DNA from: Planctomycetaceae bacterium
GTDB lineage: Bacteria; Planctomycetota; Planctomycetia; Planctomycetales; Planctomycetaceae
Assembly (NCBI GenBank): GCA_019636285.1
Contig: JAHBXV010000016.1
Span: 1-64,000, forward strand
Direction: 5' to 3'
Length of the DNA stretch: 64,000 nt
Shown: piece after piece, positions 9,993 to 53,065 of the stretch
Layout: every line of letters begins with the position of its first letter
Position numbering within the stretch: position 1 is the first letter of the stretch
Translations under genes and position numbers: made by a program
The notes under the pieces: generated by a model
What the model was told of the DNA's origin: nothing
The model's input: the letters and a program-made list of their open reading frames with translations, nothing else
Database searches by the model: none

Positions 9993-10008
9993 CTCCTGCG
10001 GAGGGTCG

Positions 10009-10974: not shown

Positions 10975-11044
10975 CTTGATTCTCCATCTAGAGCGCCTTT
11001 CAAATCACGGAACAATTTGTTGTGGGCAAGCAAAGCGCATACCC

Positions 11045-11085: not shown

Positions 11086-11090
11086 CCGCG

Positions 11091-12197: not shown

Positions 12198-12352
12198 TTT
12201 GCCCTCGATTGCAGACACACGAAACTCGATACGACGGTAGTCGTCTGGCAAAAATTCCCCTCCCGTGAGAGTGGGGGCGCGCTCAGTACTCGCGACACCA
12301 GCGTTGGGCAGCGTATTTGTGTGGCGTTCGCTCAATTCTGCACCGCGAATTT

Positions 12353-27464: not shown

Positions 27465-28817
27465 TTAGAACGTGAAGATGGCGTCGATCCCGAAGACCGT
27501 CTGGTTGAACAGATCGTCGTTGTTGGTGGGAGACCACATATGGCGGACTTCCGGACGAACGACGATGTTGTCGTGAGGCGTGACGTTCACACCGTACGTG
27601 AGGGTGTGGTAGCTGGTGCCGTCGGCCTTGTACCATTCGGCACGGACACCGGCCTTCAAGAGATCGTTGATCTGGTAGAAGGCGTAGTTGATCCAGCCCG
27701 TGCTGTCGCCGGCCGTGTAGCTGTTCGGATCGGCGAAGTCGGAGCCGAGGTCGGTTCCCAGGACGTCGAACTGAGTCGCCGTGCTGAACTTGTCGTTCCA
27801 CTGGGCCGTCAGGATGACGCTGTTCACGGCACCGTTGCCGCGCCAGCCGAGATCGCCGAACGTCGTGTAGTACGAGAAGTTGAAAATATCGTTGACGGCG
27901 TAGCTGAATCCGCCGAGGAAGTTGCTGCCGCCGTTAAACCGGTCGAAGCCGGTATCCCAGCCAGCGGTCCAACCGCCGTTGACGGTCAGCTTGTCGTTCA
28001 CCGTGTACGCGGCCAGCACGCCGGTGTGGGTGAACGGCTCGCTGTTCCAGAACGTCAACTGACGGCTGTAGAAGAAGTTGGTGGGCGCCATGACCCCTTC
28101 ATACCCGACCAGGGTATAGAAGTGACCGATCTTCACCGACAGATCGCCCACGGCGATTTCGCCGTATGCCTGGGGCAGGGCGATTTCATAGATCCCGTGG
28201 TCGAAGCCGTTCAGGTAATCCCACGTACCGGGATTGACGTTACCGAACGACTGGCCTTCGTTACCGTCGACACCGTACATGGCGTCGAACCGGAAACCCC
28301 AGTCAACCCCTTTGCTCCCGTCCGCCGTCTTCTGGACGTAGGCATAGAGCTGGTTCAGGTTGAACTTGTCCCATTCCTTCTGGTTCCGGAACGGGCCGTT
28401 GCCGGTGAACGAGCCATCAGGATTGTTCTGATAGCCCATGTCGATCCAGCCGCCCCAGTCGAAGCCGTCTTCTTCCGACAGCTTCCAAGGGCCTGTCTTG
28501 CAGCCATCGCCGCTGCCGCAGCCGAAGACCGCGTCGGGATTGCAGACGCTGTCGCAGGCCGAGGCCACCGGCACGCCGCAGGTCGGAGCGGGAGCGCAAG
28601 CCGGAGCGCAGCTGTGATTCAGCTCCGCCAGCTTCCGGGCCGCTTCTTCATAAATGTGATCGCAGCACTGGGCCGCGGGGGCGGCTGGCGTGCAAGCGGT
28701 CGGGGCCGGCATCGCGCAGGTCGGGTCCGCCGCCTGCAGCGAACTGCTCACCAGCATGCCGGCGGTGCCGAGCACCATGCCGAAGCCGGTGAATCGAAGT
28801 TTCCGCTGATTCCGCAT
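27465..28817 (-). CDS. BBP2-type beta-barrel porin with Cys-rich N-terminus
   Basis: 450 residues. Signal peptide of about 29 residues (ends SSSLQA before ADPTC). Residues ~30-107 contain 11 cysteines, including QCC, CAPAC and CDSVC, and a short helix EEAARKLAELN. From residue ~115 to the end the protein is beta-barrel-like (DWGGWIDMGYQNNPDG, FTHTGVLAAYTVNDKLTVNGGW) and ends FGIDAIFTF with a terminal Phe, the BAM recognition signature. This matches the planctomycete BBP2 porin family. An AGGAG site precedes ATG 28817 and a terminator follows. Probably an abundant outer-membrane porin. Confidence 0.9.
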   Translation of the reverse strand: MRNQRKLRFTGFGMVLGTAGMLVSSSLQAADPTCAMPAPTACTPAAPAAQCCDHIYEEAARKLAELNHSCAPACAPAPTCGVPVASACDSVCNPDAVFGCGSGDGCKTGPWKLSEEDGFDWGGWIDMGYQNNPDGSFTGNGPFRNQKEWDKFNLNQLYAYVQKTADGSKGVDWGFRFDAMYGVDGNEGQSFGNVNPGTWDYLNGFDHGIYEIALPQAYGEIAVGDLSVKIGHFYTLVGYEGVMAPTNFFYSRQLTFWNSEPFTHTGVLAAYTVNDKLTVNGGWTAGWDTGFDRFNGGSNFLGGFSYAVNDIFNFSYYTTFGDLGWRGNGAVNSVILTAQWNDKFSTATQFDVLGTDLGSDFADPNSYTAGDSTGWINYAFYQINDLLKAGVRAEWYKADGTSYHTLTYGVNVTPHDNIVVRPEVRHMWSPTNNDDLFNQTVFGIDAIFTF

Positions 28818-29912: not shown

Positions 29913-30698
29913 TCACGCGACGCCACCAATGCGCGTGGGCTCATCCAACGCCCCTCGCAAAACGAATGACAACGCCTCCGCCAGATCCCCCGCTGGCAGT
30001 TTCGCCAACTCAATCAACCGCTCCCCATACCGCTCCTGCGGCCCCGGCGAAGCTCCCGCCCACGCAACAAGCCCCCGTCCGACGTCCCACGTCTCATCAT
30101 GGGGCGCGAGCCACGTCAGCGCGACGTCTCCACCACACCCCGCCGCGACAGCACTCATCCGCTCCCGCAACCCGGGATCCTCCGTGCCAACAATCGCAAC
30201 CGGCAGCGGCCGCTCCAGAAGTCGTTCCCGTTCCGCGCGAATGGTCGTCCGCCAGACGGGATGCCGCCATTCCGGAATCAATTCCGTCAGCGGATCGAGC
30301 ACGAACCGGCGATAGCCCAGTCCCGGATGCGGCAGCGTCAACCGCTCACTCTGAACGACCATTTCGCCCAGAAACACCACATCCAGATCGATCGGCCGCG
30401 CCCCCCACCGCGTCCCCCGATCCCGCCCGAACGAATCTTCCAACCGCTGCAACTCATCCAGCAACTCCAGCGGAGCCAGCGATGTCTCCAGCATCGCCGC
30501 CGAGTTGACGTAACCGCCCCCCGCCGCGCTCCCCACGGCAACAGTCCGGTAGCATGGCGCCAGCCGCACGCTCCCACATCCCGGCAACCGCCCAAGCCGC
30601 TCAGCCGCCCGCCGAAAATGCCCCGGCACATCCCCCAGGTTCCCCCCCAAGGCAAGCACCGCCGTACGAACATCAGACCGAACATCTTCGGAACTCAA
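29913..30698 (-). CDS. folK: FolK (HPPK) with a C-terminal extension
   Basis: 261 residues from TTG 30698, which has AGAGG 6 nt upstream; the frame is open 39 codons further, but that part overlaps a dispersed repeat, so it is not counted. Residues ~10-155 are 6-hydroxymethyl-7,8-dihydropterin pyrophosphokinase: AVLALGGNLGD, YVNSAAMLETSL, ELQRLEDSFGRDRGTRWGARPIDLDVVFLG and HPGLGYRRFVLDPL. This is a folate-synthesis step. The last ~100 residues (VAIVGTEDPGLRERMSAVAAGC.. to LRGALDEPTRIGGVA) are not part of normal HPPK and are unrecognised. Confidence 0.88.
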   Translation of the reverse strand: MSSEDVRSDVRTAVLALGGNLGDVPGHFRRAAERLGRLPGCGSVRLAPCYRTVAVGSAAGGGYVNSAAMLETSLAPLELLDELQRLEDSFGRDRGTRWGARPIDLDVVFLGEMVVQSERLTLPHPGLGYRRFVLDPLTELIPEWRHPVWRTTIRAERERLLERPLPVAIVGTEDPGLRERMSAVAAGCGGDVALTWLAPHDETWDVGRGLVAWAGASPGPQERYGERLIELAKLPAGDLAEALSFVLRGALDEPTRIGGVA

Positions 30699-38924: not shown

Positions 38925-39240
38925 TCAAGGCTCCTGGTATCAGAAAGACACGGTGAGAAAAGGAAAAGAAGAAAATCACAGACCCGACCACCCATGCAGA
39001 ACCAATGCCGAGACGTGGAATTCGTGAATTCCCGATTCATTGTTCGTGAAGACACGCACTGAAATGGGTGGTGCCACCATTGTGTGCCTAAAATATGTGC
39101 ATGTCTACACATAAATCAGGCGTTCTCCCCGGGATGGGGGTTTGCGAATTCCTGGAAAGATATTGCGGCCGGTACCGCAGCGCCTGACGATGGGTAGCCG
39201 ATCAGGTTTTCCCCGACCTCTCGCCACATCGAGCCGCCGC
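38925..39240. other. AT-richer divergent intergenic region
   Basis: 316 nt between a DUF1559 gene (minus) and PhoD (plus). Contains the palindrome GGAATTC-GT-GAATTCC (~39014) and the AT-rich stretch AAAATATGTGCATGTCTACA (~39090). Both promoters should be here; no known operator recognised. Confidence 0.4.
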
Positions 39241-40953
39241 ATGTCTTTCACCCGTCGACAGTTCCTTCGCCGAGCATCCGGCGGAATTCTCATCCCGGCG
39301 GTTGCCAGTTGCTGGGCGGAACGGACCGAAGCGTCGTCCGCTGCCCCTCCCGAGTCGGTGTTTCCCCTGTCGGTCGCCTCCGGAGATCCGTCCCCCATGG
39401 GGGTGATCCTCTGGACCTATCTGTCCCCGGAGGTCCGCGTACCGAACGGCACGCTGGTGGTTCAGGTGGCGGTTGACCCCGCACTCATCGACTTGGTCGC
39501 CGAGTTCGAAGTCCCCCAGGAGACCCTCGCAGCCGAAACCGACGGAACCGTTCGCATCTCGCTCGATGGTTGGCTTTCTTCGGGACAGACGTATTACTAC
39601 CGCTTTGTGTACGAGGGGGTAGCCAGCCGGGTCGGTCGCTGCCGCACCCTCCCTCCTTCCGGAGCCGCGATTTCCCGGCTGACGTTCGGCGTCGTTACCT
39701 GCCAGGACTTCACCAACGGCTACTATGGCGCGCTGTCGCGGCTCGCCGACCGGAATGTCGATTTCGTCGTCCATCTGGGTGACTTCATCTACGAAACCGT
39801 TGGCGATCCGTCATTTCAGTCCCTCCCGTTCCCGGATCGCCGCATCGTCCTCCCCAGCGGGCAGGTCGCCGCGATGGGCCTCGAAGATTACCGCTTCCTC
39901 TATCGCCAGTACCGGTCCGATCCGCTGCTGCAAAAGCTCCTCGAACGCCACACGCTGATCGCCATCTGGGACGACCACGAGACGGCCAACGACTGCTACT
40001 GGGACTACACGCGCGATACTCTTGGCGCTCCCGATCATCCCCTCTCGTCCAACGGCGGCGACCCGGCGCGGCTGCGGCAGCTCAAGCTCGACGCCATGCG
40101 CGCCTGGAGCGAATACCTGCCGACAGCCATGGCTCCCGATCCCTCGGCGACCCACCCGTTTGACTACTTCCAGATCTATCGCCAGTTCCGCTTCGGTTCG
40201 CTCGTCGACCTGTTCATGACCGACGAGCGCACCTATCGCAGCCCGCATCCGTGCGGCGAAGACGAACGCCTCGCGTCGACCGGCTGCTTCCAGCAACTGC
40301 TTCCCTCGCAAACCATGCTGGGAACCCGGCAGCGCAACTGGCTGATCGCGGGGATGTCCCGATCCGCCGCCCGCTGGAAGGTCTGGGGAAACAGCGTCTT
40401 TCAGGGCGCCCTCAAACTGGGGCGAACCCGCTGGGCCGACGTCTACGCCAGTACCGATGCCTGGGACGGCTACGAAGGCGAACGCGCGATCATCATGCGC
40501 GCTCTCAAACGGGCCGGAGTGAAAAACCTGGTCGCTCTCACCGGCGACCTGCACACTTACATGGCATCGCTGCTGAAGATCAGCTATGCCGACCGCGACA
40601 ACACGAATGTCGAGAACCTCGTCGGTGTCGAGTTCATGACCCCTGCTGTCACCTCCTCAAACATTCGCGACCTGCTCAGCAACCTTTCATCCGACCTCTC
40701 CATCGCCGCCCGCAAGGCAAAGCTCGAATTGTCGCCGAATCTCATCGAGAAAGTCGTCCTCCAGACCAATCCGCACATCCACTTCTTCAACAGCGACTTC
40801 TGGGGCTACTCGACCGTCGAATTCACCCCTCAGCACTGCACCTACACGGCCTATCAAGTCGACAAAACCACCAACTCGGCGCTGGCCGCCGAAACGGTTC
40901 TCCGCCAGATTCGGACCCCCGTCGACAGGCCCAGCTTCATCGACCTCGTCTGA
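39241..40953 (+). CDS. phoD: PhoD-type alkaline phosphatase, Tat-exported
   Basis: 570 residues from ATG 39241, placing the Tat signal FTRRQFLRRAS at residues 3-13. N-terminal Ig-like PhoD_N domain (FPLSVASGDPSPMGVILWT..), then the phosphatase domain: VVTCQDFTNGYYGAL, FVVHLGDFIYE, IWDDHETANDCYWDY, VWGNSVFQGAL and VALTGDLHTYMAS. These supply Fe/Ca ligands of the PhoD family. It hydrolyses phosphomonoesters or diesters outside the cytoplasm. A second exported phosphatase lies at 16.1-17.4 kb. Confidence 0.92.
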   Translation: MSFTRRQFLRRASGGILIPAVASCWAERTEASSAAPPESVFPLSVASGDPSPMGVILWTYLSPEVRVPNGTLVVQVAVDPALIDLVAEFEVPQETLAAETDGTVRISLDGWLSSGQTYYYRFVYEGVASRVGRCRTLPPSGAAISRLTFGVVTCQDFTNGYYGALSRLADRNVDFVVHLGDFIYETVGDPSFQSLPFPDRRIVLPSGQVAAMGLEDYRFLYRQYRSDPLLQKLLERHTLIAIWDDHETANDCYWDYTRDTLGAPDHPLSSNGGDPARLRQLKLDAMRAWSEYLPTAMAPDPSATHPFDYFQIYRQFRFGSLVDLFMTDERTYRSPHPCGEDERLASTGCFQQLLPSQTMLGTRQRNWLIAGMSRSAARWKVWGNSVFQGALKLGRTRWADVYASTDAWDGYEGERAIIMRALKRAGVKNLVALTGDLHTYMASLLKISYADRDNTNVENLVGVEFMTPAVTSSNIRDLLSNLSSDLSIAARKAKLELSPNLIEKVVLQTNPHIHFFNSDFWGYSTVEFTPQHCTYTAYQVDKTTNSALAAETVLRQIRTPVDRPSFIDLV

Positions 40954-41092
40954 TCCCCATGAAAAGCCGCCGACGCTGTCGGCGGTCTTCCTTCCATCGC
41001 TGGCGAACCCGCGGCCCTTCCGGTTAGAACCAACGGGCGGTGCCGGGAACCGGCGCGTCTTTGGATCGACTTCTTCGCGAGACTGGCTTCCC

Positions 41093-42349
41093 ATGTTGAC
41101 ACTGGAACGCTTCACCTTCGGCGTCGGCGACCGCTTTGCTCACCAGGCTTCGGCTCAACTGGCGGCTTTCGAGAAAACGGCCGCTCTCGGCGTCGATGTG
41201 ATTCCCGTCTGGAACAAATCCAACCGCGAGCACACGTTCGTTGGCTCCGAACCGCAGAGCGTTCACGATGCGGCCGCGGCTGCGGTTCGCGCGCAGGGGT
41301 GGACCAGGCCCTGGCATGTCGACGCCGACCATATCCGGCTCGACACGGTCGATCGGTTCCTCACCTGTTCCGATTTCTTCACGATCGACGTCGCCGACAG
41401 CATTGGCCAGCCCCCCAGCGATGCCCATGTCGACGTCTTTCTCAGACGGCATCCCGAGTTGCAGGGGCGGATCGAGATTCCCGGGATCGACCAACCGTTC
41501 GAGGTCACCCCGGAACGGCTGGCCGGAACGGTGCGCAAATATCTGGCAGCCGTCGAAGAGGCGGGCCGCATCGCGCGACACATCGCCGTTCGAAAAGGGG
41601 GCAGCGAGCGGTTTATCGCTGAAGTCTCGATGGACGAAACCGACGCGCCGCAGACTCCGCCGGAACTCTTGATGATCCTGGCGATGCTGGCGGACGAAGG
41701 GGTGCAGGTGCAGACGATCGCCCCCAAGTTCACCGGCCGGTTTAACAAGGGGGTCGATTATGTCGGCGATCTTGAGCAGTTTGACCGCGAGTTTCGGGAT
41801 GACCTGGCGGTGATCGCGCATGCCGTTCGGCAATACGGGCTGCCGGTGAATCTGAAGCTGAGCGTCCATAGCGGGAGCGACAAGTTTTCGTTGTATCCCC
41901 TTATCCGGAAGGCGATGCGCGACACCGGGGCGGGGCTGCATTTGAAGACGGCCGGGACGACGTGGCTGGAAGAGATTATCGGTCTCGCGGAAGCCGGGGG
42001 GGATGGACTGGAACTGGTGCGCGAGATTTACGCTTACGCGTGGGAGCACATCGACGAGTTCTGTGCCCCGTACGCCGCGGTGATCGACATCGATCGCAAG
42101 AAGCTGCCGGACCCGACGGCGTTTAACTACTTCACGGGCGACGACGTCGCGCAGGCGGTGCGGCATATTCCGACCAACCCGGCCTTCAACGCGCACATCC
42201 GCCAGTTGCTGCATGTTTCGTTTAAGGTGGCGGCTAAGCAGGGGGACCGGTATTACGACCTCCTGAAGGCGAACTCCGAGATCGTCGGGAAGAACGTCAC
42301 CGAGAACATCTTTGATCGCCATATGCGTCCGCTGTTTCTGGACGCCTGA
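41093..42349 (+). CDS. uxaE: tagaturonate/fructuronate epimerase family protein (UxaE)
   Basis: 418 residues of the UxaE family: FGVGDRFAHQASAQL, PVWNKSNREHTFVGSEP, WHVDADHIRLDTVDRF, FIAEVSMDETDAPQTPPELL, TIAPKFTGRFNKGVDYVGD, LKLSVHSGSDKFSLYPLI and GAGLHLKTAGTTWLEE. Known members interconvert D-fructuronate and D-tagaturonate in hexuronate catabolism; metal ligands are among the D/H/E residues of these strings. Followed by an aldo/keto reductase and a lactonase-like gene. The compositional switch of the window falls inside this gene (about 41.5 kb). Confidence 0.88.
   Translation: MLTLERFTFGVGDRFAHQASAQLAAFEKTAALGVDVIPVWNKSNREHTFVGSEPQSVHDAAAAAVRAQGWTRPWHVDADHIRLDTVDRFLTCSDFFTIDVADSIGQPPSDAHVDVFLRRHPELQGRIEIPGIDQPFEVTPERLAGTVRKYLAAVEEAGRIARHIAVRKGGSERFIAEVSMDETDAPQTPPELLMILAMLADEGVQVQTIAPKFTGRFNKGVDYVGDLEQFDREFRDDLAVIAHAVRQYGLPVNLKLSVHSGSDKFSLYPLIRKAMRDTGAGLHLKTAGTTWLEEIIGLAEAGGDGLELVREIYAYAWEHIDEFCAPYAAVIDIDRKKLPDPTAFNYFTGDDVAQAVRHIPTNPAFNAHIRQLLHVSFKVAAKQGDRYYDLLKANSEIVGKNVTENIFDRHMRPLFLDA
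41400..41700. other. base-composition polarity switch (possible replication-origin or inversion point)
   Basis: By counting C and G on the + strand per 60 nt, lines up to about 41.46 kb are C-rich or balanced (for example 23 C to 14 G at 41401) and lines from about 41.52 kb are G-rich (14 C to 21 G at 41581). The trend holds across the window regardless of gene strand. Several repeat families invert across it. No DnaA-box cluster was recognised. Confidence 0.4.
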
Positions 42350-42385
42350 TTCCGATCCTTTCCTTGCACCTTGAGAGCCATCACC

Positions 42386-43321
42386 GTGATTCCGACTCGC
42401 CGTCTTGGGTCGACCGACCTGGAGTTGCCGATCCTTGGGTTTGGGGCCTCTTCGCTGGGGCAGGAGTTTCGCAAGGTCCGGCTCGACGAAGCACTCGAGA
42501 GCGTGCAGGTCGCGCTGGAGTGCGGGCTGAACTTCATCGATACGTCTCCCTTCTATGGCCGGGGGATGAGCGAGGTGCTGCTCGGCATTGCCCTCCGCGA
42601 TGTCCCTCGCGACTCCTATACGCTGTGTACCAAGCTCGGCCGTTATGACCTGGGGCACTTCGACTTTTCGGCGAGGCGCGTCGCCGAGAGTGTCGATGTT
42701 TCGCTGCATCGGCTGGGGACCGACCATCTCGACATTATCCTCTGCCACGACATCGAATTCGTCCCGATGCAGCAGATTGTCGACGAGACCATCCCCGCCT
42801 TGCGGCGTATCCAGCAGCAGGGGAAGGTTCGTTACATCGGGGTCAGCGGGTATCCGCAGAAGATCTTCCGGTTCATCTGCGACCAGACCGACATCGACTG
42901 CGTCCTCAGCTACAACCAGTACACGCTCCAGAACGCGCGGTTCGCCGAGGAGTCGGTTCCTTACCTGAAGGCGAAGGGGGTCGGCATCATGAACGCCGGT
43001 CCGTTCAGCGCCCGGCTGCTGACGAATGCTCCCCTGCCGGCGTGGCTCAAAGAGCCGGAAGAGGTTAAGGCCGCGGCTCGCCAGGCTGCCCAGTTGTGTC
43101 GCGATCGCGGGGTCGACATCGCCCAGCTCGCGTTGCAGTTCAGCCTGGCGAATCCCGAGATTGCGACGACGATCGCGGGGAGCGCCAACCCCGACAATAT
43201 CCGCAACTGGGCGAAGTGGGCGGTCGCCCCGCTCGACGAGCGACTGCTGCGGGAGGTGCTGGGGATTTTTGAGCCGGTTCATAATGTTGGGCATGTTGAG
43301 GGACTGGCTGAGAATAATTGA
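42386..43321 (+). CDS. aldo/keto reductase (L-fucose/L-galactose dehydrogenase-like)
   Basis: 311 residues from GTG 42386 (GAGAG upstream; a TTG 5 codons earlier is possible). AKR barrel motifs: RRLGSTDLELPILGFGASSLG, the catalytic tyrosine in NFIDTSPFYGRGMSE, the lysine in YTLCTKLGRY, and IILCHDIEF with the active-site His. The style fits L-galactose/L-fucose/D-threo-aldose dehydrogenases that oxidise the sugar to a lactone. It lies 36 nt after uxaE and upstream of a fuconolactonase-like hydrolase, so a lactone intermediate makes sense. Confidence 0.88.
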   Translation: MIPTRRLGSTDLELPILGFGASSLGQEFRKVRLDEALESVQVALECGLNFIDTSPFYGRGMSEVLLGIALRDVPRDSYTLCTKLGRYDLGHFDFSARRVAESVDVSLHRLGTDHLDIILCHDIEFVPMQQIVDETIPALRRIQQQGKVRYIGVSGYPQKIFRFICDQTDIDCVLSYNQYTLQNARFAEESVPYLKAKGVGIMNAGPFSARLLTNAPLPAWLKEPEEVKAAARQAAQLCRDRGVDIAQLALQFSLANPEIATTIAGSANPDNIRNWAKWAVAPLDERLLREVLGIFEPVHNVGHVEGLAENN

Positions 43322-43621
43322 ATGCGGTTGCGCGCGGAGGCGCGGGGGACGCAGAGAATTGATGAGGGGGGGACACGGAGAGGGGGAGATGGGGCGAGAG
43401 AGACGTTGTTAGTTGTCTCTCTGGGCCATCTTCTTTGTGTCTTTGTGGCTTGGTGAGGAAGACTTCTTGGGGATTGCTGGAGTCGTTTGATCCCACGGGA
43501 AGAGGAGGGGGCTCACGGAGGCGCGGAGGCACGGAGAGGAATGAAGAAGAAGAGTGAAGAAGAGGACGCGGGGATGGGGGGAGAGGGAGATGGGGCGATA
43601 AGAGGATAGGTCGGGGTTGGT
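43322..43621 (+). repeat. G/A-rich repeat-bearing intergenic region
   Basis: 300 nt. Contains CACGGAGGCGCGGAGGCACGG-type units (~43505-43535), GGGGGACACGGAGAGGGGG, and a CTTTGTGTCTTTGTGGCTTG stretch (~43433). Related units occur at 44466, 46183 and 50800-51030 in the same orientation, and in reverse complement at 24884 and 30790-30880 left of the polarity switch. Confidence 0.65.
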
Positions 43622-44452
43622 ATGCTTATTGATTCGCATCAGCATTTTTGGCGGTATTCGGTCGAGGGGTATCCCGGGATTTCGGAGGCGATGGGGCGGT
43701 TGCGGCGGGATTTTTTGCCTTTGGACCTGGAGCCTTTGTTGCGGGAGCAGGGAATCGCTGGGTCGATCGCCGTGCAGGCTCGGCAGTCTTTGGAGGAGAA
43801 TGAGTTTCTGCTGGGGCTGGCTGATGCGCATGATCTGGTCAAAGGGGTGGTTGGCTGGGTCGATCTGCGCGGCGAGCGGGCTGATGATGAGTTAGCCGCG
43901 TTTGCCTCTCACCCTAAGGCGGTGGGGGTGCGCCATGTGGCCCAGGATGAGCCGGACGACGGGTTTCTGGCGCGGCCGGAGTTTGTGCGGGGGGTGCAGA
44001 AACTCCTTACGCATGGCCTGGTTTACGACATTCTGATCTATGCCCGGCAGCTTCCGGCGGCGATCGAATTGGTGCGGCAGTGTCCGGATCAGCCGTTTGT
44101 GCTGGACCACATTGCCAAGCCGGATATTCGCGATCGGGAACTCGCGGTCTGGTCGGCCAACCTCCGCGAACTGGCCCGCTGTCCCAACGTCACCTGCAAG
44201 GTGTCCGGCATGGTGACGGAAGCCGCCTGGAGTGGCTGGCAACCAGACGATTTCCGTCCGTATCTCGATGTCGTTCTGGAAGCGTTTGGGGTCGACCGGT
44301 TGATGTACGGTTCCGACTGGCCGGTCTGCCTGTTGGCCGGGGAGTATGACGAGGTGATTGGCCTGGTGCGGGGGTTCTTCGCGGATGCTTCGCCGTCGGC
44401 GCGTGAGGCGATTTTTGGGGGGAATGCGTGTCGAGTGTACGGGTTGAGGTAG
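43622..44452 (+). CDS. amidohydrolase, L-fuconolactonase-like
   Basis: 276 residues. MLIDSHQHFW supplies the HxH metal ligands; VGWVDLRGE, GVRHVAQDEPD, PFVLDHIAKPDI, NVTCKVSGM and RLMYGSDWPVC (active-site Asp) are the landmarks of the COG3618 lactonase group that includes L-fuconolactonase and 4-sulfomuconolactonase. It probably hydrolyses the lactone made by the neighbouring aldo/keto reductase. Strongly G-biased codons on this strand. Confidence 0.87.
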   Translation: MLIDSHQHFWRYSVEGYPGISEAMGRLRRDFLPLDLEPLLREQGIAGSIAVQARQSLEENEFLLGLADAHDLVKGVVGWVDLRGERADDELAAFASHPKAVGVRHVAQDEPDDGFLARPEFVRGVQKLLTHGLVYDILIYARQLPAAIELVRQCPDQPFVLDHIAKPDIRDRELAVWSANLRELARCPNVTCKVSGMVTEAAWSGWQPDDFRPYLDVVLEAFGVDRLMYGSDWPVCLLAGEYDEVIGLVRGFFADASPSAREAIFGGNACRVYGLR

Positions 44453-44465
44453 TGAGAGGGTGGCT

Positions 44466-44592
44466 GAGAGGGGGCGACGCGGGGATGGGGTGAGGGGGAG
44501 ATGAAGAGTGGGGTTGGCTTGAGTGATTGTGATCTGGAGACTTCGGTGCCGGACTGGGGGATCGATTATCCCTGGGACGAGGGTCGTGTTTC
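44466..44592 (+). pseudogene. frameshifted 5' fragment of a DUF542 gene, left copy of a direct repeat
   Basis: Matches 46183-46304 with few differences, from a G-rich leader through the codons for SDCDLETSVPDW. One extra C in TTATCCCTGG (versus CATCCTGA in the intact copy) shifts the frame, and similarity fades after GTGTTTC. The intact DUF542 gene is at 46232-46450. The two copies bracket the ATPase gene. Confidence 0.75.
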
Positions 44593-44647
44593 TCCGGCGC
44601 AACTTCTTTTGCAGAAGATGGTTGAATTGGAGGAGCAAGAAAAGGTA

Positions 44648-44685
44648 AAGTGGTTTTATCTTTTTTTGATAAAGTGGCTTTATCT
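44648..44685 (+). promoter_or_regulatory. operator-like AT-rich repeat before the ATPase gene
   Basis: Two tandem AAAGTGGYTTTATC units (starting 44648 and 44671) separated by a T-rich spacer, with a perfect inverted repeat GATAAAG-TGG-CTTTATC at 44668-44684. It ends about 13 nt before ATPase ATG 44698. In GC-rich surroundings it is conspicuous; a role in autoregulation is inference. Confidence 0.5.
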
Positions 44686-44697
44686 CGCTGAGGTGGC

Positions 44698-46167
44698 ATG
44701 GCGGACTGGAAGTTCTATGGCCGAAAGGAGCAGCTTGCGGGTCTGGAGCAGATGCTCAACCGCAAACGCTGGTTTTTTGCCAAGGTGACTGGCCGCCGTC
44801 GAATCGGCAAGACAACGCTCATTCAGCAAGCCATGCGGGAAATCGGCAGTCAGCAGCCGGTCTTCTACGTTCAAGTCCCTGACTCGGAGCCAGCCGGTGT
44901 TCTCTCGGCGGTGAACGACGCGCTGGAAACCTTCCAGGTTCCCTCCGATCGATATCCACGCCCGCAGAATCTCCTTCAGCTGGCGAAGTTGCTGGAGGCG
45001 ATGGCGGAAGGTGGTTACATCCTCATTCTTGACGAATTCCAATACTTCAATCGCAAGGGGTACGAGGAATTCTGCTCGCACTTGCAGGCGGGGGTCGATC
45101 GACTGGCTGGCAAGGCCGACCAGGTGCATGGCGGACTGATTGTTCTGGGTTCGATTCACACGGAGATGATGGCCCTGCTCGAAGATCGGACGGCTCAGCT
45201 CTATCACCGAGTCACCGACACCATTGATCTGACACATCTCGACGTCGGCTCGCTTTTGTCGCTTTTGCGAGATCACACCGATCCGACTCCCGAGCGACTG
45301 CTGTTCCTCTGGAACCTGTTTGAAGGGGTGCCGAAATTCTATCGGGACTGCTACGAGCAGGGGGTGCTTGCCGCCGAGCGTCGGGAACTGCTCCGCCGCA
45401 TTTTCTTTGAGAGTTCATCGCCCCTGCGATCGGAAGCCGAGAACTGGTTTCTGCGCGAACTTCGAGGTCGGTATGACGTGGTGTTGAAGTTTGTCGCGCG
45501 CAATCCGGGGCGAATGCACAACGAGCTTGTCCATGCGATTCGCGAGGCGAGCGGGAGCCCAGATACCCAGATTGGCGGCTACCTGAAGGTGCTCATCGAG
45601 CGATTTGGACTGATCGAGCGAAAGCTACCCATCTTCTCCAAGCCAGAAGCCAAGCGCGGCCGGTACTATGTCACGGATAACTTTCTCCGCTCCTGGCTGG
45701 CGGCACTGGCGAATCCGGTCTCCGCGATTGCCTTCCGCCCGCTCGTCGACCTGATTGAAGAAGCCGACCTGCGTCTTGCAGACGCTGAAGGGGGAGCCCT
45801 GGAGAAACTCGCTGGTCAACTCTACGAGGAGCGAAGTCGCAAGGGGGTTGGGGATTTTCCGATTACCCGTCGAGTTCAAGGATTCTGGGACAAGGCCGAG
45901 ACGGAGATTGATCTGGTCGCGGTCAACGAGACCGAGCAATCCATTCGATTTGGTTCCTGTAAACGCTCTCCCAGAAAGCTGCTCTCCGATGTGAACAGCT
46001 TCAAGCAGCACGTTGAACGATTTTTGCAGGCCATGCCGAACTATCAGGAGTGGACGAAGCAGTATGTGGGGATTGCCCCGGTGCTGGATGCCGAGCAACG
46101 AGCCATCCTGGCCAGTCACGACATTATTCCGCAGGATTTGAACGACTTGACCGTTGGGCTGGATTGA
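44698..46167 (+). CDS. AAA-type ATPase with C-terminal DUF234 domain
   Basis: 489 residues. Walker A TGRRRIGKTT (31-40), Walker B ILILDEFQYF (108-117) and sensor-like LIVLGSIHTEMM. A winged-helix region follows (NELVHAIREASGSPDTQIGGYLKVLIERFGLIER), then the C-terminal DUF234 domain with E-IDLVAV and GSCKRS, matching the PD-(D/E)xK nuclease core noted in this family. This is the COG1672 archaeal-type ATPase group, common in archaea and scattered in bacteria; function unknown, sometimes linked to mobile or defence genes. GAGG precedes the start. Direct repeats flank the gene. Confidence 0.88.
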   Translation: MADWKFYGRKEQLAGLEQMLNRKRWFFAKVTGRRRIGKTTLIQQAMREIGSQQPVFYVQVPDSEPAGVLSAVNDALETFQVPSDRYPRPQNLLQLAKLLEAMAEGGYILILDEFQYFNRKGYEEFCSHLQAGVDRLAGKADQVHGGLIVLGSIHTEMMALLEDRTAQLYHRVTDTIDLTHLDVGSLLSLLRDHTDPTPERLLFLWNLFEGVPKFYRDCYEQGVLAAERRELLRRIFFESSSPLRSEAENWFLRELRGRYDVVLKFVARNPGRMHNELVHAIREASGSPDTQIGGYLKVLIERFGLIERKLPIFSKPEAKRGRYYVTDNFLRSWLAALANPVSAIAFRPLVDLIEEADLRLADAEGGALEKLAGQLYEERSRKGVGDFPITRRVQGFWDKAETEIDLVAVNETEQSIRFGSCKRSPRKLLSDVNSFKQHVERFLQAMPNYQEWTKQYVGIAPVLDAEQRAILASHDIIPQDLNDLTVGLD

Positions 46168-46182
46168 GGGTTGATTGTGATG

Positions 46183-46304
46183 GAGAGGGGGCGACGGGGG
46201 GATGGGGTGAGGATTGAAGAGTGGGGTTGGCGTGAGCGATTGTGATCTGGAGACTTCGGTGCCGGACTGGGTGATCGATCATCCTGAGACGCTGGGCGTG
46301 TTTC
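46183..46304 (+). repeat. right copy of the direct repeat flanking the ATPase gene
   Basis: Collinear with 44466-44592; it includes the ribosome site and first ~24 codons of the intact DUF542 gene. Confidence 0.8.
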
Positions 46305-46450
46305 AGGAGTTGGGGATCGACTGTTCCTGCGGCGGTAAGTCGCTGGGGTATGCGTGTCGGGAGCGCGGGCTGGATGGTGAGAGGGTGCTTGCCCGGCTGC
46401 GGGAGTGTGTGAGGGCGGAGGAAGAGGGGCGGTTGAGTCGTGGGGATTAG
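46232..46450 (+). CDS. stand-alone DUF542 (ScdA_N) protein
   Basis: 72 residues from GTG 46232, with TGGGG upstream. The core VPDWVIDHPETLGVFQELGI followed by DCSCGGKSLGYACRERGLD is the ScdA_N/DUF542 motif found at the N-terminus of iron-sulfur repair proteins (ScdA/YtfE/RIC). The CCGG-type cysteines are present as CSCGG. The hemerythrin-like di-iron domain that follows in full-length RIC proteins is absent. Small stand-alone DUF542 proteins exist; role probably redox or NO related. Confidence 0.85.
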   Translation: MSDCDLETSVPDWVIDHPETLGVFQELGIDCSCGGKSLGYACRERGLDGERVLARLRECVRAEEEGRLSRGD

Positions 46451-46493
46451 CCGGTGGCAAACTGCGAGGAATTGGGACCGCAGGTCCGAAAGA

Positions 46494-46525
46494 CCACTGC
46501 TGGGCCGCAGACGGTCCAGCAGTGG
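46494..46525. repeat. CCACTGCTGG hairpin repeat
   Basis: CCACTGCTGG and CCAGCAGTGG around a 12-nt loop, followed by CACGTGG. A weaker relative (GCCACTGC..GCAGTGG) lies at about 50428-50455. Confidence 0.6.
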
Positions 46526-46726
46526 CACGTGGCGATTTGTTCCCCGCATTGAGTCAAAAAGTGACGGCGGACTCACCCGAAAACCGCTTGACGATTGAAC
46601 ACTATCGTCACAATACTGGATTCCGTTCGGTGAAATGCTTGGGCGTCTGTGAACCTAGCCGTCTGAGCGAGACGCTGGTGGCGGCTTGCAGCGTCAATTC
46701 TTCTTCGCATTCCGAGCGCGTAGACG

Positions 46727-47350
46727 ATGCCGCGATTGTACCTACCTGATGTCGGAAAGCTCGACTCGCTGGGAATTCTATTCTCTCTGCTCCCAGGTCT
46801 ATTGACATATGTCGTGCAACGCGCTTTGTCTGGTCGGGAACAGAAGTTAGAGGCTGTTGACGCCATCCTTCACGGGCTCGCCTACACGGTGCTTGTTCAT
46901 GCCGTGTGGGCAGTTCTAACCATGTGGTCCTGGTTTCCGACGCCAGACATCTTTGGTCTCTGTGCCTGTGCAATCGCGTTGGGAGCTATTGTCGCGAAAT
47001 GTAAGAACAGCGGCTGGTTTTATGGCGCTCTTCGCTTTTGTGGGCTCTCGAGGGAATCTTCATGGCCGACGATTTGGGAAACTTCTTTTCGGGAAGCATC
47101 CCGACTCGGAAGCGAGTATGCCGTATTGCATCTGAAGGATCGCCGCCGTGTGATGGGCGCCGTCCGATTCTATTCCCACGATCAAGCCTCGGGACATGTG
47201 ATTCTTGAACGGGCGCAATGGCTCGATTCTGCAGACGGGATTGGCCAGATCGAAGGAATGTTTGTTGTCAGTGGGAGTGATGTTCAGTTCGTTCAGTTTC
47301 TCTTCCCGAAGGTTCAGTTCCTCGCTCAAGAAGAAAGGGCCACAGAATGA
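46727..47350 (+). CDS. DUF6338-like membrane protein
   Basis: 207 residues. Two to three membrane helices in the first 90 residues (LGILFSLLPGLLTYVVQRAL, ILHGLAYTVLVHAVWAVLTM, IFGLCACAIALGAIVA), then a cytoplasmic domain with PTIWETSFREASRLGSEYAVLHLKD, RRRVMGAVRFYSHDQASGHVIL and VSGSDVQFVQFLFPK. The architecture and the WETSF..VRFYS region fit DUF6338, a family without assigned function. Its stop overlaps the start of the next gene (ATGA), so translation is coupled. AT-richer than core genes, suggesting acquisition. Confidence 0.75.
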   Translation: MPRLYLPDVGKLDSLGILFSLLPGLLTYVVQRALSGREQKLEAVDAILHGLAYTVLVHAVWAVLTMWSWFPTPDIFGLCACAIALGAIVAKCKNSGWFYGALRFCGLSRESSWPTIWETSFREASRLGSEYAVLHLKDRRRVMGAVRFYSHDQASGHVILERAQWLDSADGIGQIEGMFVVSGSDVQFVQFLFPKVQFLAQEERATE

Positions 47351-47541
47351 GCGACGACAAGCAGCAAAGGCCGGATCCGCCGCCTCCTCCTCCGATTTGC
47401 CCAACGCCTCCAGACATCGAGTTTCGCGGCGGATGGAACCCTCCAGCCAAGTCACCTCCACCGACACCGCCGGTGGCTCCACCGCCGCCGCCACCAGCCG
47501 AACCACCGGTATTGCCGGCGCCGCCGCAGGCTCCCGAATAG
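47347..47541 (+). CDS. small proline-rich protein, translationally coupled
   Basis: 64 residues. The ATG overlaps the upstream TGA (ATGA). Roughly half of the residues are proline (RPDPPPPPPICPTPPDIEFR and later PPPPPPAEPPVLPAPPQ). No domain. Coupling to the DUF6338-like gene suggests the two products act together; the extended Pro-rich chain could serve as a binding arm. Confidence 0.7.
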   Translation: MSDDKQQRPDPPPPPPICPTPPDIEFRGGWNPPAKSPPPTPPVAPPPPPPAEPPVLPAPPQAPE

Positions 47542-48179
47542 GTTGTTCAAAGTGTCGCTGCGCTTGCCACGGCGGAGCAGAATCCACGCAGAGAAACAAG
47601 GGCAACATTTCTGTTTGGAGCTCAGTGAAACTCGTGATCCATTTCTGTCTTTTGCACGTTTGCTGCTCTTATCCAAGCAGGGTTAGGCCCAAGGAGCGAT
47701 TCTGTTGAAGCGTTTCTTTGATTGGTCGGAAAACCCCGGAAGTAGCCCGCCGACTGTCGTAGTCGACTGGATGACTCAAATGGGGCCAACCACAGCCGCC
47801 CGACGAGCCCCCGTGACAGGTACGGAAATGCGGCACAGCACCTTTTGGTGATGTGGTAACGACGTTACTCATCAGGAGACCGCAGCTTCGGCTGCGCGAC
47901 CCGGCGATAACCTGTCTGTCGCCGGGCCATTTTCTTACGCTGCCAGTGTTTTTTACTTGACGGAGGCCTCCCGAGCCATTGACTCTCTGGTGCTCGGGTC
48001 TTCATGTTCGCACGCTGAGACCGAGTGCATGGAGGCACATTGCCCGATGACGATTCATCCTTTCCAACGGCTCTTCGCTAGACGATCACGGACATCTTCA
48101 GCAAACGGTATTCGCGGAATCCGCATGGCCACGGGTCGGGAAGCAGTCCTCCACCGAATCTGGCGTCGGAGCAGGAAGA
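47542..48179. other. gene-poor region with hairpins
   Basis: 638 nt. Apart from the hairpin pair at 47881-47936, I find no repeat or gene I can support. A frame of 135 codons from 47957 has no family features and overlaps the next gene. Confidence 0.45.
47881..47936 (+). terminator. double hairpin with T-rich tail
   Basis: CGCAGC-TTCG-GCTGCG is followed by CCCGGCGA and TCGCCGGG around an 11-nt loop, then CCATTTTCTT. It fits a terminator for the DUF6338/proline-rich pair, though it is 340 nt downstream. Confidence 0.55.
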
Positions 48180-48929
48180 GTGGGTCATCAACGCAGCCAT
48201 TATATGGATCAACTCACTCGTTCGTCGGCTTCCTTCGTGTTTCGCCTTCTTCGAAAACAAGTAAACGCCCATCACAAGAGAATAACCTTGCAACCACCAA
48301 GGCAGGCTACGGTCGAAATTGCCGAGTTGCTAAAGCGAGGCGAAGGGCCGACTCTAGAATTTAAAAGCACTGTGCCCTCCCCGAGCGAAATCGCAAGACT
48401 CGTCTCTAGCATGTCAAACACAAACGGCGGCACCATTCTCGTCGGTGTTGCCGAGACCCCGATGAAAGTGGTTGGTATAGATTGGGCGAGATTCGAAAAG
48501 GCAGTTAAACTAGCGCAGAAGCAGTTGCACGGATCGCCACAATGGACCTCTCAATGTGTCATTCATGAAGGAATGAATGTTGGGGTTATCCACGTCTCAC
48601 AATCAACTGAACTTGTTGGGTCGGACGCTGGATACTTCGAGCGCAACGGCGATCGGGACACACCGATCGGAGCCGAACAGATTGCACGCAAATTGGGCGT
48701 GTTCGCGGGCTTGCACGAGACGCTCCATGCCATTCCAGAAGCGATTGAAGGAATGACACGATCGAACGAGGATCTCAGGGCTTCAAATGAGAGCCTTACG
48801 CAGAAGACGCATGCACTGACTGCCGCATTGGACCGAGCGAACTCGTGGAAGATGAAGCTGTTTTGGGCAGCCGTTGGTGCCCTTTGTACTTCACTTTCCA
48901 GGTGGTGTCTCGAACTCGTCGCGAGCTAA
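48180..48929 (+). CDS. AlbA_2/Schlafen-domain protein with C-terminal membrane helix
   Basis: 249 residues from GTG 48180, with AGGAAGA directly upstream; ATG 48204 is the alternative. Residues ~50-165 form an AlbA_2 (Schlafen-like) domain: EGPTLEFKST, IARLVSSMSNTNGGTILVGV and VGVIHVSQSTELVGS. A predicted coiled coil (RSNEDLRASNESLTQKTHAL) leads to a hydrophobic C-terminus (LFWAAVGALCTSL). Schlafen-like domains bind or cut nucleic acids and often occur in regulators or defence proteins. Membrane anchoring is unusual. AT-rich codon use. Confidence 0.75.
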   Translation: MGHQRSHYMDQLTRSSASFVFRLLRKQVNAHHKRITLQPPRQATVEIAELLKRGEGPTLEFKSTVPSPSEIARLVSSMSNTNGGTILVGVAETPMKVVGIDWARFEKAVKLAQKQLHGSPQWTSQCVIHEGMNVGVIHVSQSTELVGSDAGYFERNGDRDTPIGAEQIARKLGVFAGLHETLHAIPEAIEGMTRSNEDLRASNESLTQKTHALTAALDRANSWKMKLFWAAVGALCTSLSRWCLELVAS

Positions 48930-49043
48930 GAAGAGTTGGCTATATTGGTCAACAGTTCGTGATCTGTATGACATGGATCCACGAGGCTGGCTGAACTGCC
49001 ATTTGTGTTGGCATGGAACGCGAAGAACCGATTTCAGTGATAC

Positions 49044-49808
49044 CTAGTCGGTCAAAATGGACAATCGTTGGAGCATGCCGTTCGGGACGATCACTGCATC
49101 AGTGCTATCCGCTGGCACCAAAACAATGTCGGCGCTCGATCGGTAAACGAGCAACGCCGCTTCGAAGAATTCGCCATTTGTCAAAATAATCGTAGCCCGG
49201 AGACGATGGGAGTCGGCTTCTTCCAGTCCCGCGAACACCGCATGGATCGCAAAGAAGCAAAGGGACGCTCCAACAACAAGGGCTCGCAATCCTGCCGAGT
49301 GCGACTTTAGACCGCGATAGGCAATAAACCCCCACACCTGAAACAGAAGATACGGAATCGCGACGAGGTCGTTTCTGAAGTACCAAGCGGCCAAGACTCC
49401 GGCGAGCCCCAGCATGCTCCAGATTACCAGAATCCATAGAGCGACGGCCTCGGCTAGTGGAAGACGAATCGTCGATCCATCTGCCTTGGTCATGGACAGA
49501 GGCGAGAATTTGAAATCAGTGTCGGCCTGCGCGGTGCTGGGAGCGGCAGTCGTGCGCGGCTGCGGGATTAGAAACAGCCGCTCACGCGCCCAGAGGTATC
49601 CCATAGCGAACGAAAAGAGGCATAACAACGATCGAGTGTTGATCGCTACGATGTCAAGAAAGTCGACTCGCACGAGAGCCATTGGAACTGAAAATGCAAT
49701 GAGAAACGCCCTGTAGTAGGCGGTTCCAATCAAATACAGAAAAAGCGTGGCTAGTGTCGTCAAGGAGAGCCCGAGCTTGGCGACCGTCTCCAGTTTGTGC
49801 AGCTCCAC
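49044..49808 (-). CDS. hypothetical membrane protein
   Basis: 254 residues. About four to five hydrophobic segments (LSLTTLATLFLYLIGTAYY, LLCLFSFAMGYLW, AVALWILVIWSMLGLAGVLA, LLFQVWGFIAYRGL, ALVVGASLCFFAIHAVFAGL) and a C-terminal soluble domain with TIILTNGEFFEAALLVYRSS. No family recognised. Convergent with the AlbA gene; part of the same AT-richer accessory block. Confidence 0.65.
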   Translation of the reverse strand: MELHKLETVAKLGLSLTTLATLFLYLIGTAYYRAFLIAFSVPMALVRVDFLDIVAINTRSLLCLFSFAMGYLWARERLFLIPQPRTTAAPSTAQADTDFKFSPLSMTKADGSTIRLPLAEAVALWILVIWSMLGLAGVLAAWYFRNDLVAIPYLLFQVWGFIAYRGLKSHSAGLRALVVGASLCFFAIHAVFAGLEEADSHRLRATIILTNGEFFEAALLVYRSSADIVLVPADSTDAVIVPNGMLQRLSILTD

Positions 49809-49972
49809 GAGATGCTCCAGCGGTTTGAGTGATTGCGGCCCTCAAAGGTCCTTTTACGTACAGCAGTTGATCCAAAAAAGTCAATTGAGTGCGATGTGGG
49901 TGCACTGCTGTTCGAACCGCGGAAGGTTGAGTACGGCGGTGAGATATTTTGGCAATACAGTAGGGGTCGAAA

Positions 49973-50389
49973 ATGTCCGATGAGCTTTCAAAAAGTTACG
50001 TCGCCTCTGCGTGGGCGGACAGGTGCGATTCGGCGCGATCCCATGCGGGGCTTATCGCTTCGACCTGCAGGAATAGGCGCATTGCCGAGTTAATCATCGG
50101 AAGCGTGGGTGAGTTGTGCACAAGACCTGTGCCATCGACGTTGACGGAACTCGGCAATCTGCAATTACTGAGTATTCGCTTGAGCGGCAAGATTTCGGCT
50201 CTTGCAAGTGCTGATCATTCAATCTTGAGTCTTCCAGAAGTCGCGGACCAAGTAGTTGCCGAAGCGGAAAGCTTTTCGCGGGAATTCTGCCTTGATAGGG
50301 ATTGCAGTCCACGGGCGACGGGTTTCTCAATGGCGATCTCAAGTATTTGTCACAACGCGATAGTCCGTAGGTCTCGTGGAGGCGGATGA
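49973..50389 (+). CDS. hypothetical protein
   Basis: 138 residues; AGGGG lies 7 nt upstream of ATG 49973. Mostly helical (SLPEVADQVVAEAESFSREF) with no family recognised. It could be a decayed or chance frame; the ribosome site is the main support. Confidence 0.35.
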   Translation: MSDELSKSYVASAWADRCDSARSHAGLIASTCRNRRIAELIIGSVGELCTRPVPSTLTELGNLQLLSIRLSGKISALASADHSILSLPEVADQVVAEAESFSREFCLDRDCSPRATGFSMAISSICHNAIVRRSRGGG

Positions 50390-51055
50390 TCTTCAGGAGT
50401 GGTTCAGAGCTTGCAAAATCCGCCGGGTGCCACTGCTAGCTTGCCTTGCAGTGGGAGCGGTTGACTGGGCGACATCGCCGAAGTGGGATGCGTCTCCGTG
50501 CCGCGGGGCTTGGAAATGCCGAGTGCGCGCGATGAAATCAACCAATCTCGGTTCGGAGGGAATGGCGACTCCCCGTTTCGAGTATCCGACCCAGCGCGGA
50601 AAGGACACTGGCGGAGCCAGTGGCACACGGAGACCAGTTTGCCACCTCTTGTGGCTTCGCCACCCAGGTAGGCCTGGGGCCAACCTGGGCCACCCGGAGC
50701 GAGTTAGTATAGAGTCCGTCGGCCTTTTTGGACTTCATCGATGACATCAACGACGACGAACACTCCGCCGCGGGATGATGAGCTGGTTCGGGCGGCGAAT
50801 GCGGGGGAGTGAAGGGGAGAGGGAGAAGGGGTGACGCGGTGATGGGGTGAGGGAGCGATGGGGTGAGAGGGGAAGGGGAGACGCGGGGAGTGAAGGTGGG
50901 GGCTCACGGAGGCGCTGAGCCACGGAGAGATAGCGGGGGTGGTGTGGTTGTTGGGGTTGCTTTGCGGTCTCGGCGTCGTCTGCGGTGAATGGTTTTTTAC
51001 CGCGGAGGCCGCGGGGGGCGGGGAGAGAGGGCGTCAAGAGACGTGGGCCGGTGGG
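50390..51055. repeat. repeat-rich intergenic region
   Basis: 666 nt without a supported gene. In order: a CCACTGC/GCAGTGG hairpin (~50428), CACTGGC-GGA-GCCAGTG (50606-50622), GTGGC-TTC-GCCAC and the CCCAGGTAGGCCTGG hairpin (50651-50695, copy 4 of that family), then G/A-rich arrays (GGGGTGACGCGGTGATGGGG and similar) at 50805-50895, and CACGGAGGCGCTGAGCCACG at ~50907. Confidence 0.65.
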
Positions 51056-52807
51056 TTAGCGTTTGCTTTGGGTGGTGGACTTGGATTTTTGCGGTTGGTG
51101 GAAGAAGTAGATGACCTGGGCTGGGGAGCGGACGCCGACTTTGGATGACAGGGTTGGCGTACCGGCTTTCAGATCCTGGGTGAAGATTGCCCATTGCCAG
51201 ACTTCCTTGTCAGCCGAGGTGGTTTGCAGAATCTCTTTTTGTGGCGTCCAGCCTTCTTCCTTCAGGGCGTCCAGGAGTTGGGCCGAGACGATGCTTTGGC
51301 CGTTGATCTGATGCATAATGGCCATCGAGACCGAGCAGTCTGCCAGCACTTCCACCGAGCCGCGGCTGAGCCAGCCGCCGACTTGCGAGGAATCGCGGAC
51401 GATGAAAGCCGCGTCTTTCAGGTGGCGGGGGAATTTGAGGATCGCGTACTGGCGATCCCCGATGTAGGGAATTCTCGCGTCCACCGCTCCCAGGGAGTAG
51501 CTGCTGTTCGCGGCGAGGCGGACCGGAGGTTCTTTGGGGGCTTTGCGCTGGCCGATGGGTTCCGGCATGGGCGCCGACGGAGCTGGAGTGCTGGGTTTGC
51601 CGGGTGGTGGCGTGGGTGTGCTGGGGGGCGAGGTTGGGGTGGGCACGGTCGCGGCGACGGGCATTGCATCGAGGGGGACGGCCTGCGGGTATTTCGGCAG
51701 AGGGCCGTGGAGTTTGGCGAGCGTCTGCTGCTGGTCTTCGTTCAGGTCGAGAATGAAGAACTGGAGGTACTCGCCCTGCTGGGCAATGTAGACAGAGCCG
51801 TGGGCGCCGAACGTGGAGAGATTCTCCCAGAATTTGACGGCGAGAGGCTTATGCTTCCAGGTCTGGCGAATGACGAGGCTTTCGGCATCGAAGAGGAAGA
51901 AGTCGTAGTTGGCTCCCTGAGCGATGCCGATTGGCAAGTCGGGATGAAAGGCGACGTTTTGCGGGCCGCCGACATCGAGTCCGCCGAGCATGGTGTTGAA
52001 GTCATCGGTCGGGAAGACAGCCATGCCGAAGCGGGTCTTGGCGTTGGTGGGAGACCACCAGCCGCCGCCGGCCACCATGATGTACTTCGAGCCGTCGGGA
52101 CTGAGATGGAGATATCCGCCGGCGCCGACAGCCGTGTTGGGGTTGGATGCGATCATTTTCAGCTTCGAGCCGCTGATAGAATATTTGGAAACGGTGGCGG
52201 TCTCGGCGACGGTGACGCGCTGGATGTCGACGACGCCGGGGGCGGTGCGCTGAAAGCGGATCACTTCTTCGGAGGGGCGATTGGTGGCGGCGAGGAGGAA
52301 TTGTCCTTTTTTCGGGTCAACCCGGAGATACATGCCTTTGGCGATCGTCGGGCTAACGCGATTCGACTTGGGGTCGAGAGCGAAGATGTTTTCTTCCAGG
52401 TTAGCGGCGAAGACGGAGCCGGATTCCGGATGGCAGGCGAGCGACTGGACGGGTTCGCCTGGCAAACGGTATTCGCGAAGCTTCTTGCCGGTGGCGGCAT
52501 CGAGGGCATGAACGATGGTGCTGCCGTCGACGGAGACGAAGAGCTCGTCGCCCTGGCCGGTGATGCAAGCGGGTTTGAAGGGAACGGAAAGGCGCTGTTT
52601 TTCGGTGGCCGTCATGACATCGAAGACGATCAGCTCGGCTGTCGTCGGGCTGGTCATGATGAGGGTCTTGGTATCGGGCGTGAGATACCAGCCCTTGGTC
52701 TGAGGGACCGTGCAGGTGACGACGCGGGGTGCTTCGGCAGCGAAACCGGCGGCAGACAACAACACGCAGAGGCCCAAACCCGTGGCCAGTGTGCGGAAAC
52801 GTGTCAT
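51056..52807 (-). CDS. secreted YVTN/WD-like beta-propeller protein
   Basis: 583 residues. Signal peptide ends ..AAGFAAEA (about 23 residues). Residues ~25-380 are propeller blades (TLIMTSPTTAELIVFDVMTA, GDELFVSVDGSTIVHALDAATGKKL, ESGSVFAANLEENIFALDP). A proline/threonine linker (PTPTSPPSTPTPPPGKPSTP) leads to a C-terminal domain of ~150 residues (YSLGAVDARIPYIGDRQYAI..) that I do not recognise. Probably periplasmic or cell-surface; no enzymatic motif seen. Confidence 0.85.
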   Translation of the reverse strand: MTRFRTLATGLGLCVLLSAAGFAAEAPRVVTCTVPQTKGWYLTPDTKTLIMTSPTTAELIVFDVMTATEKQRLSVPFKPACITGQGDELFVSVDGSTIVHALDAATGKKLREYRLPGEPVQSLACHPESGSVFAANLEENIFALDPKSNRVSPTIAKGMYLRVDPKKGQFLLAATNRPSEEVIRFQRTAPGVVDIQRVTVAETATVSKYSISGSKLKMIASNPNTAVGAGGYLHLSPDGSKYIMVAGGGWWSPTNAKTRFGMAVFPTDDFNTMLGGLDVGGPQNVAFHPDLPIGIAQGANYDFFLFDAESLVIRQTWKHKPLAVKFWENLSTFGAHGSVYIAQQGEYLQFFILDLNEDQQQTLAKLHGPLPKYPQAVPLDAMPVAATVPTPTSPPSTPTPPPGKPSTPAPSAPMPEPIGQRKAPKEPPVRLAANSSYSLGAVDARIPYIGDRQYAILKFPRHLKDAAFIVRDSSQVGGWLSRGSVEVLADCSVSMAIMHQINGQSIVSAQLLDALKEEGWTPQKEILQTTSADKEVWQWAIFTQDLKAGTPTLSSKVGVRSPAQVIYFFHQPQKSKSTTQSKR

Positions 52808-53065
52808 GACGTCACCTTCAGGCAGAGAGGAAGATTGCCTTGGAGTCCGTCAGTGTGTGGCCGGGCGGCGGTGAGTTCAATTGGCAGTTCTACCTATATT
52901 GAGAGAGGGAGAGGGTGAGACGCGGGGAGTGGGGGTCGGGGAGGCTTCAAATTGATCGTTTGGGGTTGGGGGGATAGGCTTTTGCGGGTGGTGTGAGTGC
53001 GGTCTGGATGGCTGGGATTGGTGTTCGGAAGAGATTCTCCCCCTGTGAGTTTTTGATCGGGCAAT

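Follow-up and report, generated by a model that had tools for sequence, protein, structure and literature searches.

A strong, orientation-independent switch of strand composition on a planctomycete contig: a possible unusual or former replication origin, or an inversion boundary

Bacterial replication does not always start at an oriC that depends on DnaA. In the cyanobacterium Synechococcus sp. PCC 7002, replication proceeds from a unique origin independently of DnaA and oriC, which provides a bacterial precedent, and Synechocystis PCC 6803 replicates from multiple origins (PMC7198777). Gemmatimonadota chromosomes have been described in which strong strand bias is limited to certain regions; these are defined by gene direction and span 600 kb around the terminus (PMC11237797). 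Computational location of origins is difficult in planctomycetes, which have little genome-wide skew and two copies of dnaA, and a published dif prediction failed for the single planctomycete tested (PMC3025954).

Here we describe a switch of strand composition on contig JAHBXV010000016.1 (128,241 bp, hereafter C22) of a Planctomycetaceae bacterium, which we interpret as an origin, whether unusual or no longer in use, or else as one end of an inverted stretch. The window analysed is the 64,000-nucleotide first half of this contig (C22:1-64000). The source genome is a 6.37-Mb draft in 113 unordered contigs, and our genome-wide statements about it are based on 1.49 Mb sampled from it. For comparison, 0.8 Mb was sampled from a complete 7.28-Mb genome of the same family (G001); none of the relatives recovered belongs to the same genus. 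Gene calls come from a simple hexamer-based finder and may include a few erroneous short ones; r denotes third-position skew corrected for gene orientation. Scans of the 64-kb window for tRNAs and Rfam families returned no match.

GC skew in 2-kb windows is negative nearly throughout to 42 kb and positive beyond, and cumulative GC skew over all of C22 has a single minimum, at 41,455, from which it climbs to the contig end. The window divides as follows.

Positions 1-40,953: domain with a C-rich + strand, apparent in genes of both orientations and in fourfold-site and intergenic skew.
Positions 40,954-43,621: turning zone containing uxaE and an aldo/keto reductase gene, with almost no third-position skew.
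Positions 43,622-64,000: domain with a G-rich + strand, extending beyond the window to C22:128,241 and weakening with distance.

The first-pass annotation had described the + strand as C-rich on the left and G-rich on the right in genes of both orientations, a C-to-G change with the sign expected at an origin. This description holds in sign, orientation independence and strength, and the effect is stronger than had been stated. At fourfold sites, + strand skew on the left is -0.440 in + genes and -0.278 in - genes, and on the right it is +0.347 and +0.361, respectively, with background genes of the same genome at -0.014 (+ genes) and -0.019 (- genes). Because + and - genes agree, an effect of gene direction is ruled out as the cause. 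Intergenic DNA follows the same pattern (-0.121 left, +0.118 right), r is below zero in 23 of the 31 genes that precede 41.0 kb and above zero in 56 of the 59 that follow 43.4 kb, and the two sets of r differ with a Mann-Whitney p of 5e-13. The fourfold-site frequencies of C and G are mirror images of one another (0.561/0.263 on the left, 0.268/0.562 on the right), amounting to a 2.1-fold G:C asymmetry at silent sites; T and A are balanced at these sites on both sides, and the base change is nearly independent of the adjacent base.

The features around the turn are as follows.

Positions 39,358-40,953, + strand: phoD-like phosphatase gene, with which the strongly C-rich genes end (r -0.30; 39,142-40,953 if started at the first TTG).
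Positions 40,962-40,990, + strand: terminator-like hairpin between phoD and uxaE, with 21 related copies in the 1.49 Mb sampled.
Positions 41,093-42,349, + strand: uxaE (tagaturonate epimerase family), intact (r 0.03).
Positions 42,386-43,321, + strand: aldo/keto reductase gene, which in relatives commonly adjoins uxaE (r 0.06).
Positions 43,337-43,606, + strand: intergenic G-rich arrays on the right margin of the turning zone.
Positions 43,622-44,452, + strand: amidohydrolase gene, the first strongly G-rich gene (r +0.39).

The switch had been placed inside uxaE near 41.5 kb. The cumulative minimum agrees with that position, but the turn is a zone rather than a point, with uxaE itself neutral; the cassette partners of uxaE and the reductase gene, the amidohydrolase and an alcohol dehydrogenase, have r of about 0.4. 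An inversion breakpoint, offered in the annotation as an alternative, is excluded within the uxaE-reductase pair because uxaE is intact and has kept its neighbour in many relatives, but it is viable beside phoD or the amidohydrolase gene. No long repeat pair spans the junction of the two domains, where only the short dispersed hairpin was found. The hairpin family (AAAAGCCGCCGACGCnGTCGGCGGTCTTC) shows compensating stem changes among its copies, which cluster on contigs C57, C25 and C13. We considered these hairpins as boundary markers and rejected the idea, since their clustering is not limited to skewed contigs, C13 being another site of it, and they resemble ordinary terminators.

The arrays at the right edge of the zone belong to a larger set.

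Positions 44,449-44,509, 46,188, 50,814 and 52,919, + strand: further G-rich intergenic arrays.
Position 30,839, - strand: G-rich intergenic array.

With a period of about 8 nt, six such arrays lie within 10 kb (43,337-53,000), a density far above that in the rest of the sampled genome. All seven arrays on C22 are on the G-rich strand, as are 18 of 22 across the sampled genome where local |r| exceeds 0.05; they are a second, non-coding sign of the same strand polarity. Apart from these arrays, which are found elsewhere too, the stretch from 40.5 to 44.9 kb showed neither recognisable iterons nor a recognisable AT-rich unwinding element. Similar sequence, including a partly duplicated small reading frame, flanks an ATPase gene (44,698-46,167) within 44,449-46,450, and it is possible that the ATPase unit was inserted between the two flanks.

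The asymmetry peaks within about 40 kb of the turning zone. On the right, with low-GC3 genes left out, signed r drops with distance (Spearman -0.61, p = 1e-6), from roughly 0.31-0.39 within 42 kb to 0.28 at 42-60 kb, 0.23 at 60-75 kb and 0.18 at 75-90 kb; this side is fading by 85 kb. The 41 kb on the left show no fading with distance (p = 0.82, again without low-GC3 genes). Of the 59 genes in the G-rich right half of the contig, the G-rich strand carries 43. The strongest skew of any left-half gene is that of folK.

Positions 29,913-30,659, - strand: folK (HPPK), r -0.63.

A BBP2 porin gene in the left domain (27,465-28,817, r +0.28) is an exception to the pattern, and DUF1559 genes have r near zero. 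Two low-GC stretches, at 8,000-12,700 and 46,000-50,000, are probably recent acquisitions; the second contains DUF6338 and Schlafen AlbA_2 genes. Both are neutral in strand composition, as if too young for the bias, which fits a slow acquisition of skew in place.

Chance or ordinary background is a poor explanation for the switch. The eight-gene contrast at 41,093 is 0.479, the top of 281 positions tested, and the biggest among these outside C22 is 0.257. Mean |skew| in 49 other 20-kb samples of the genome is 0.033, with values above 0.1 in only two (-0.186 on C25, +0.119 on C2), and the background spread of r is about 0.10 beyond sampling noise. The C25 sample belongs to a strong, one-signed C-rich block (C25:24,000-72,000) in which skew reaches -0.24 with no switch; the block has a sharp left edge at 24 kb, and hairpin copies are found at 24,368 and 24,694.

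Relatives indicate that the asymmetry belongs to the position rather than to the genes. Many of the records closest to uxaE come from planctomycetes (Schlesneria, Planctomyces and Planctomycetaceae MAGs), an affiliation that the DUF1559-type genes also fit. The uxaE loci of 31 relatives (21 kb each) have a left-right contrast of -0.005 +/- 0.053 versus 0.262 here, which rules out an effect tied to uxaE itself. Orthologs of C22 genes in G001 lack the asymmetry (rank correlation of |r| 0.15, p = 0.16) and are dispersed over its single chromosome in an order so thoroughly scrambled that former neighbours at the switch are no longer visible; an initial impression from folK and three neighbours that the neighbourhood of the switch is conserved between the two genomes failed on this scatter. 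By following up the most skewed sample of G001, we reached a similar switch there, a selected example: near 1.564 Mb, strand composition turns from C to G independently of orientation, with genes at about -0.2 to -0.5 before it and +0.2 to +0.4 after it. This position is far from dnaA-S, the short dnaA gene described below (6.474 Mb), from the full-length dnaA (0.001 Mb) and from the best parS-like site (0.237 Mb). A C-rich block at about 1.43-1.564 Mb lies between G-rich blocks at 1.24-1.36 and 1.564-1.576 Mb, suggesting an opposite switch near 1.43 Mb, about 130 kb away, and therefore giving the block the look of an inverted segment. The rplB gene (1.117 Mb) and both rRNA operons (1.180 and 2.299 Mb) all run in the + direction, which suits rightward forks through the whole stretch. 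None of them is more than 0.75 Mb from 1.564 Mb, as would befit an origin close by. On origin versus inversion, G001 thus cuts both ways. A chromosome-wide two-arm skew was not detectable in this genome (permutation p = 0.92).

The standard markers of a bacterial origin lie on other contigs, in agreement with the earlier failure to see dnaA or a DnaA-box cluster near the switch. A search of the 128 kb of C22 for DnaA boxes found five isolated one-mismatch boxes, one of them, at 48,586, between 38 and 50 kb; C22 carries neither a box cluster nor dnaA, and it has no parS-like site within two mismatches. Two dnaA genes are present in all of the Planctomycetia genomes checked. In the source genome, C28 carries the full-length gene, which matches DnaA_N, and C18 the short one, dnaA-S (349 aa, no DnaA_N match), whose 3' end carries five DnaA boxes within 223 bp (C18:131,816-132,038).

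C18:131,816-133,079: dnaA-S and its DnaA boxes.

This is the sole DnaA-box cluster in the sampled DNA and, since only 75 such boxes occur in 1.43 Mb, it is not a product of chance. Three boxes lie at the same place beside dnaA-S in both G001 and G024, making the layout common to three genera. Skew adjoining the C18 cluster is weak. Three parS-like palindromes within 1.1 kb of C26 (112,724-113,836) are likely to be a chromosome partition site.

What a long-lived point of fork divergence would leave behind is a switch of this sign, strength and independence of orientation. We give a nearly even chance to the reading that the zone at 41.0-43.6 kb of C22 is a present or former fork-divergence point of the chromosome. 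Each locus would be pushed toward G on the leading strand, and large inversions would turn leading-strand loci into lagging-strand ones and back repeatedly in the time that silent sites take to turn over, averaging the skew away. A gene deep in a replichore would be caught by many inversions, and DNA close to the divergence point would seldom be flipped, so we propose that skew survives only there. In a toy simulation of 640 loci with random inversions and a fixed origin, strong co-directional skew faded within about 100 kb from the origin; elsewhere a noisy, near-zero background was obtained, with no protected partner domain at the terminus. The values on C22 and the spread of the background fit this simulation in kind, which makes an origin, present or former, the best single reading of a lone strong switch. 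That an active origin sits at phoD-uxaE-reductase today, lacking a DnaA-box cluster and distant from both dnaA and parS in a fast-rearranging chromosome, seems unlikely to us. The C18 locus may be the working origin now, in which case C22 would be a former origin or lie near it. Several observations count against an origin on C22: the markers on C18, C26 and C28, the unfading skew on the left, the one-signed block on C25, and the lack of recognised iterons or of an unwinding element between 40.5 and 44.9 kb. If the switch in G001 were of the same kind, rplB and one of the two rRNA operons would be head-on to replication there, and the opposite switch that brackets it also counts against the origin reading.

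The main rival is that a one-signed skewed domain was cut, at phoD/uxaE or at reductase/amidohydrolase, and part of it flipped, an explanation we regard as possible but tentative. The C-rich block of G001 between its G-rich neighbours has the pattern of an inverted segment, and the shared direction of rplB and the rRNA operons there, the scrambled gene order between the two genomes, the existence of a one-signed block on C25 and the repeated hairpin between phoD and uxaE all speak for it. It has to contend, however, with near-maximal skew on both sides of the switch and with the lack of a long repeat pair across the junction. A single clean cut also fails to explain the neutral zone, because uxaE and the reductase gene are neutral while their cassette partners are strongly skewed, and it leaves the strong skew of C22 in an otherwise unskewed genome without explanation. 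An inversion inside a skewed domain near an origin would give the same local picture.

The right-hand decay of skew across some 100 kb, together with the restriction of the silent-site effect to G and C, not T and A, would also be in keeping with another strand-asymmetric process acting over about 100 kb only, such as repeated partial re-replication from the site. We know of no local system of this kind in these bacteria, and averaging by inversions requires no new process, making this alternative improbable. A secondary replicon, either a chromid or a megaplasmid, of which C22 is a part and whose origin lies at 41-43 kb, would be expected to have its own skew switch, and strong skew is limited to a few contigs (C22, C25 and part of C2). 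Nevertheless, we consider it very improbable: a search of window genes near the switch recognised no replication initiator, C22 contains core genes (folK, for example), the orthologs of its genes are scattered along the one chromosome of G001, and its repeats also occur on other contigs. Least probable of all is a terminus with inverted chemistry, in which forks converge at the switch and the leading strand is C-rich. Such a scheme is numerically possible, and the arms of G001 set by the DnaA-box/dnaA-S locus show a slightly inverse skew, but the two-arm fit is not significant, the coding bias of the right half is toward its G-rich strand, and G-rich leading strands are the rule (PMC8941118).

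Should origins in heavily rearranged genomes be marked by local skew domains, they could be located directly from draft contigs. If the C22 domain is a former origin, it would be a record of an origin move; if it is an inverted segment, local skew alone misleads.

Like the switch at a DnaA-dependent oriC, that on C22 runs from C to G in the 5'-3' direction, at long range and regardless of gene orientation. It differs in the absence of dnaA, a DnaA-box cluster and parS, and in its fading within about 100 kb on the right, whereas the replichores of a usual oriC hold their skew for megabases. Irregular chromosome-wide skew together with an origin detached from dnaA, as in the cyanobacteria, would account for what is seen on C22. 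The cyanobacterial origins were shown by experiment, however, while C22 is known from composition alone, and, unlike in the cyanobacterial cases, DnaA boxes persist beside dnaA-S in its family. With the Gemmatimonadota regions C22 shares a strong strand bias in part of the chromosome only, but its bias lies in base composition and has an origin-like sign. Finally, the abrupt change of sign between adjoining blocks resembles the breaks in skew at inversion endpoints, from which C22 differs in having a neutral two-gene zone between two blocks that both stand far above the genome background.
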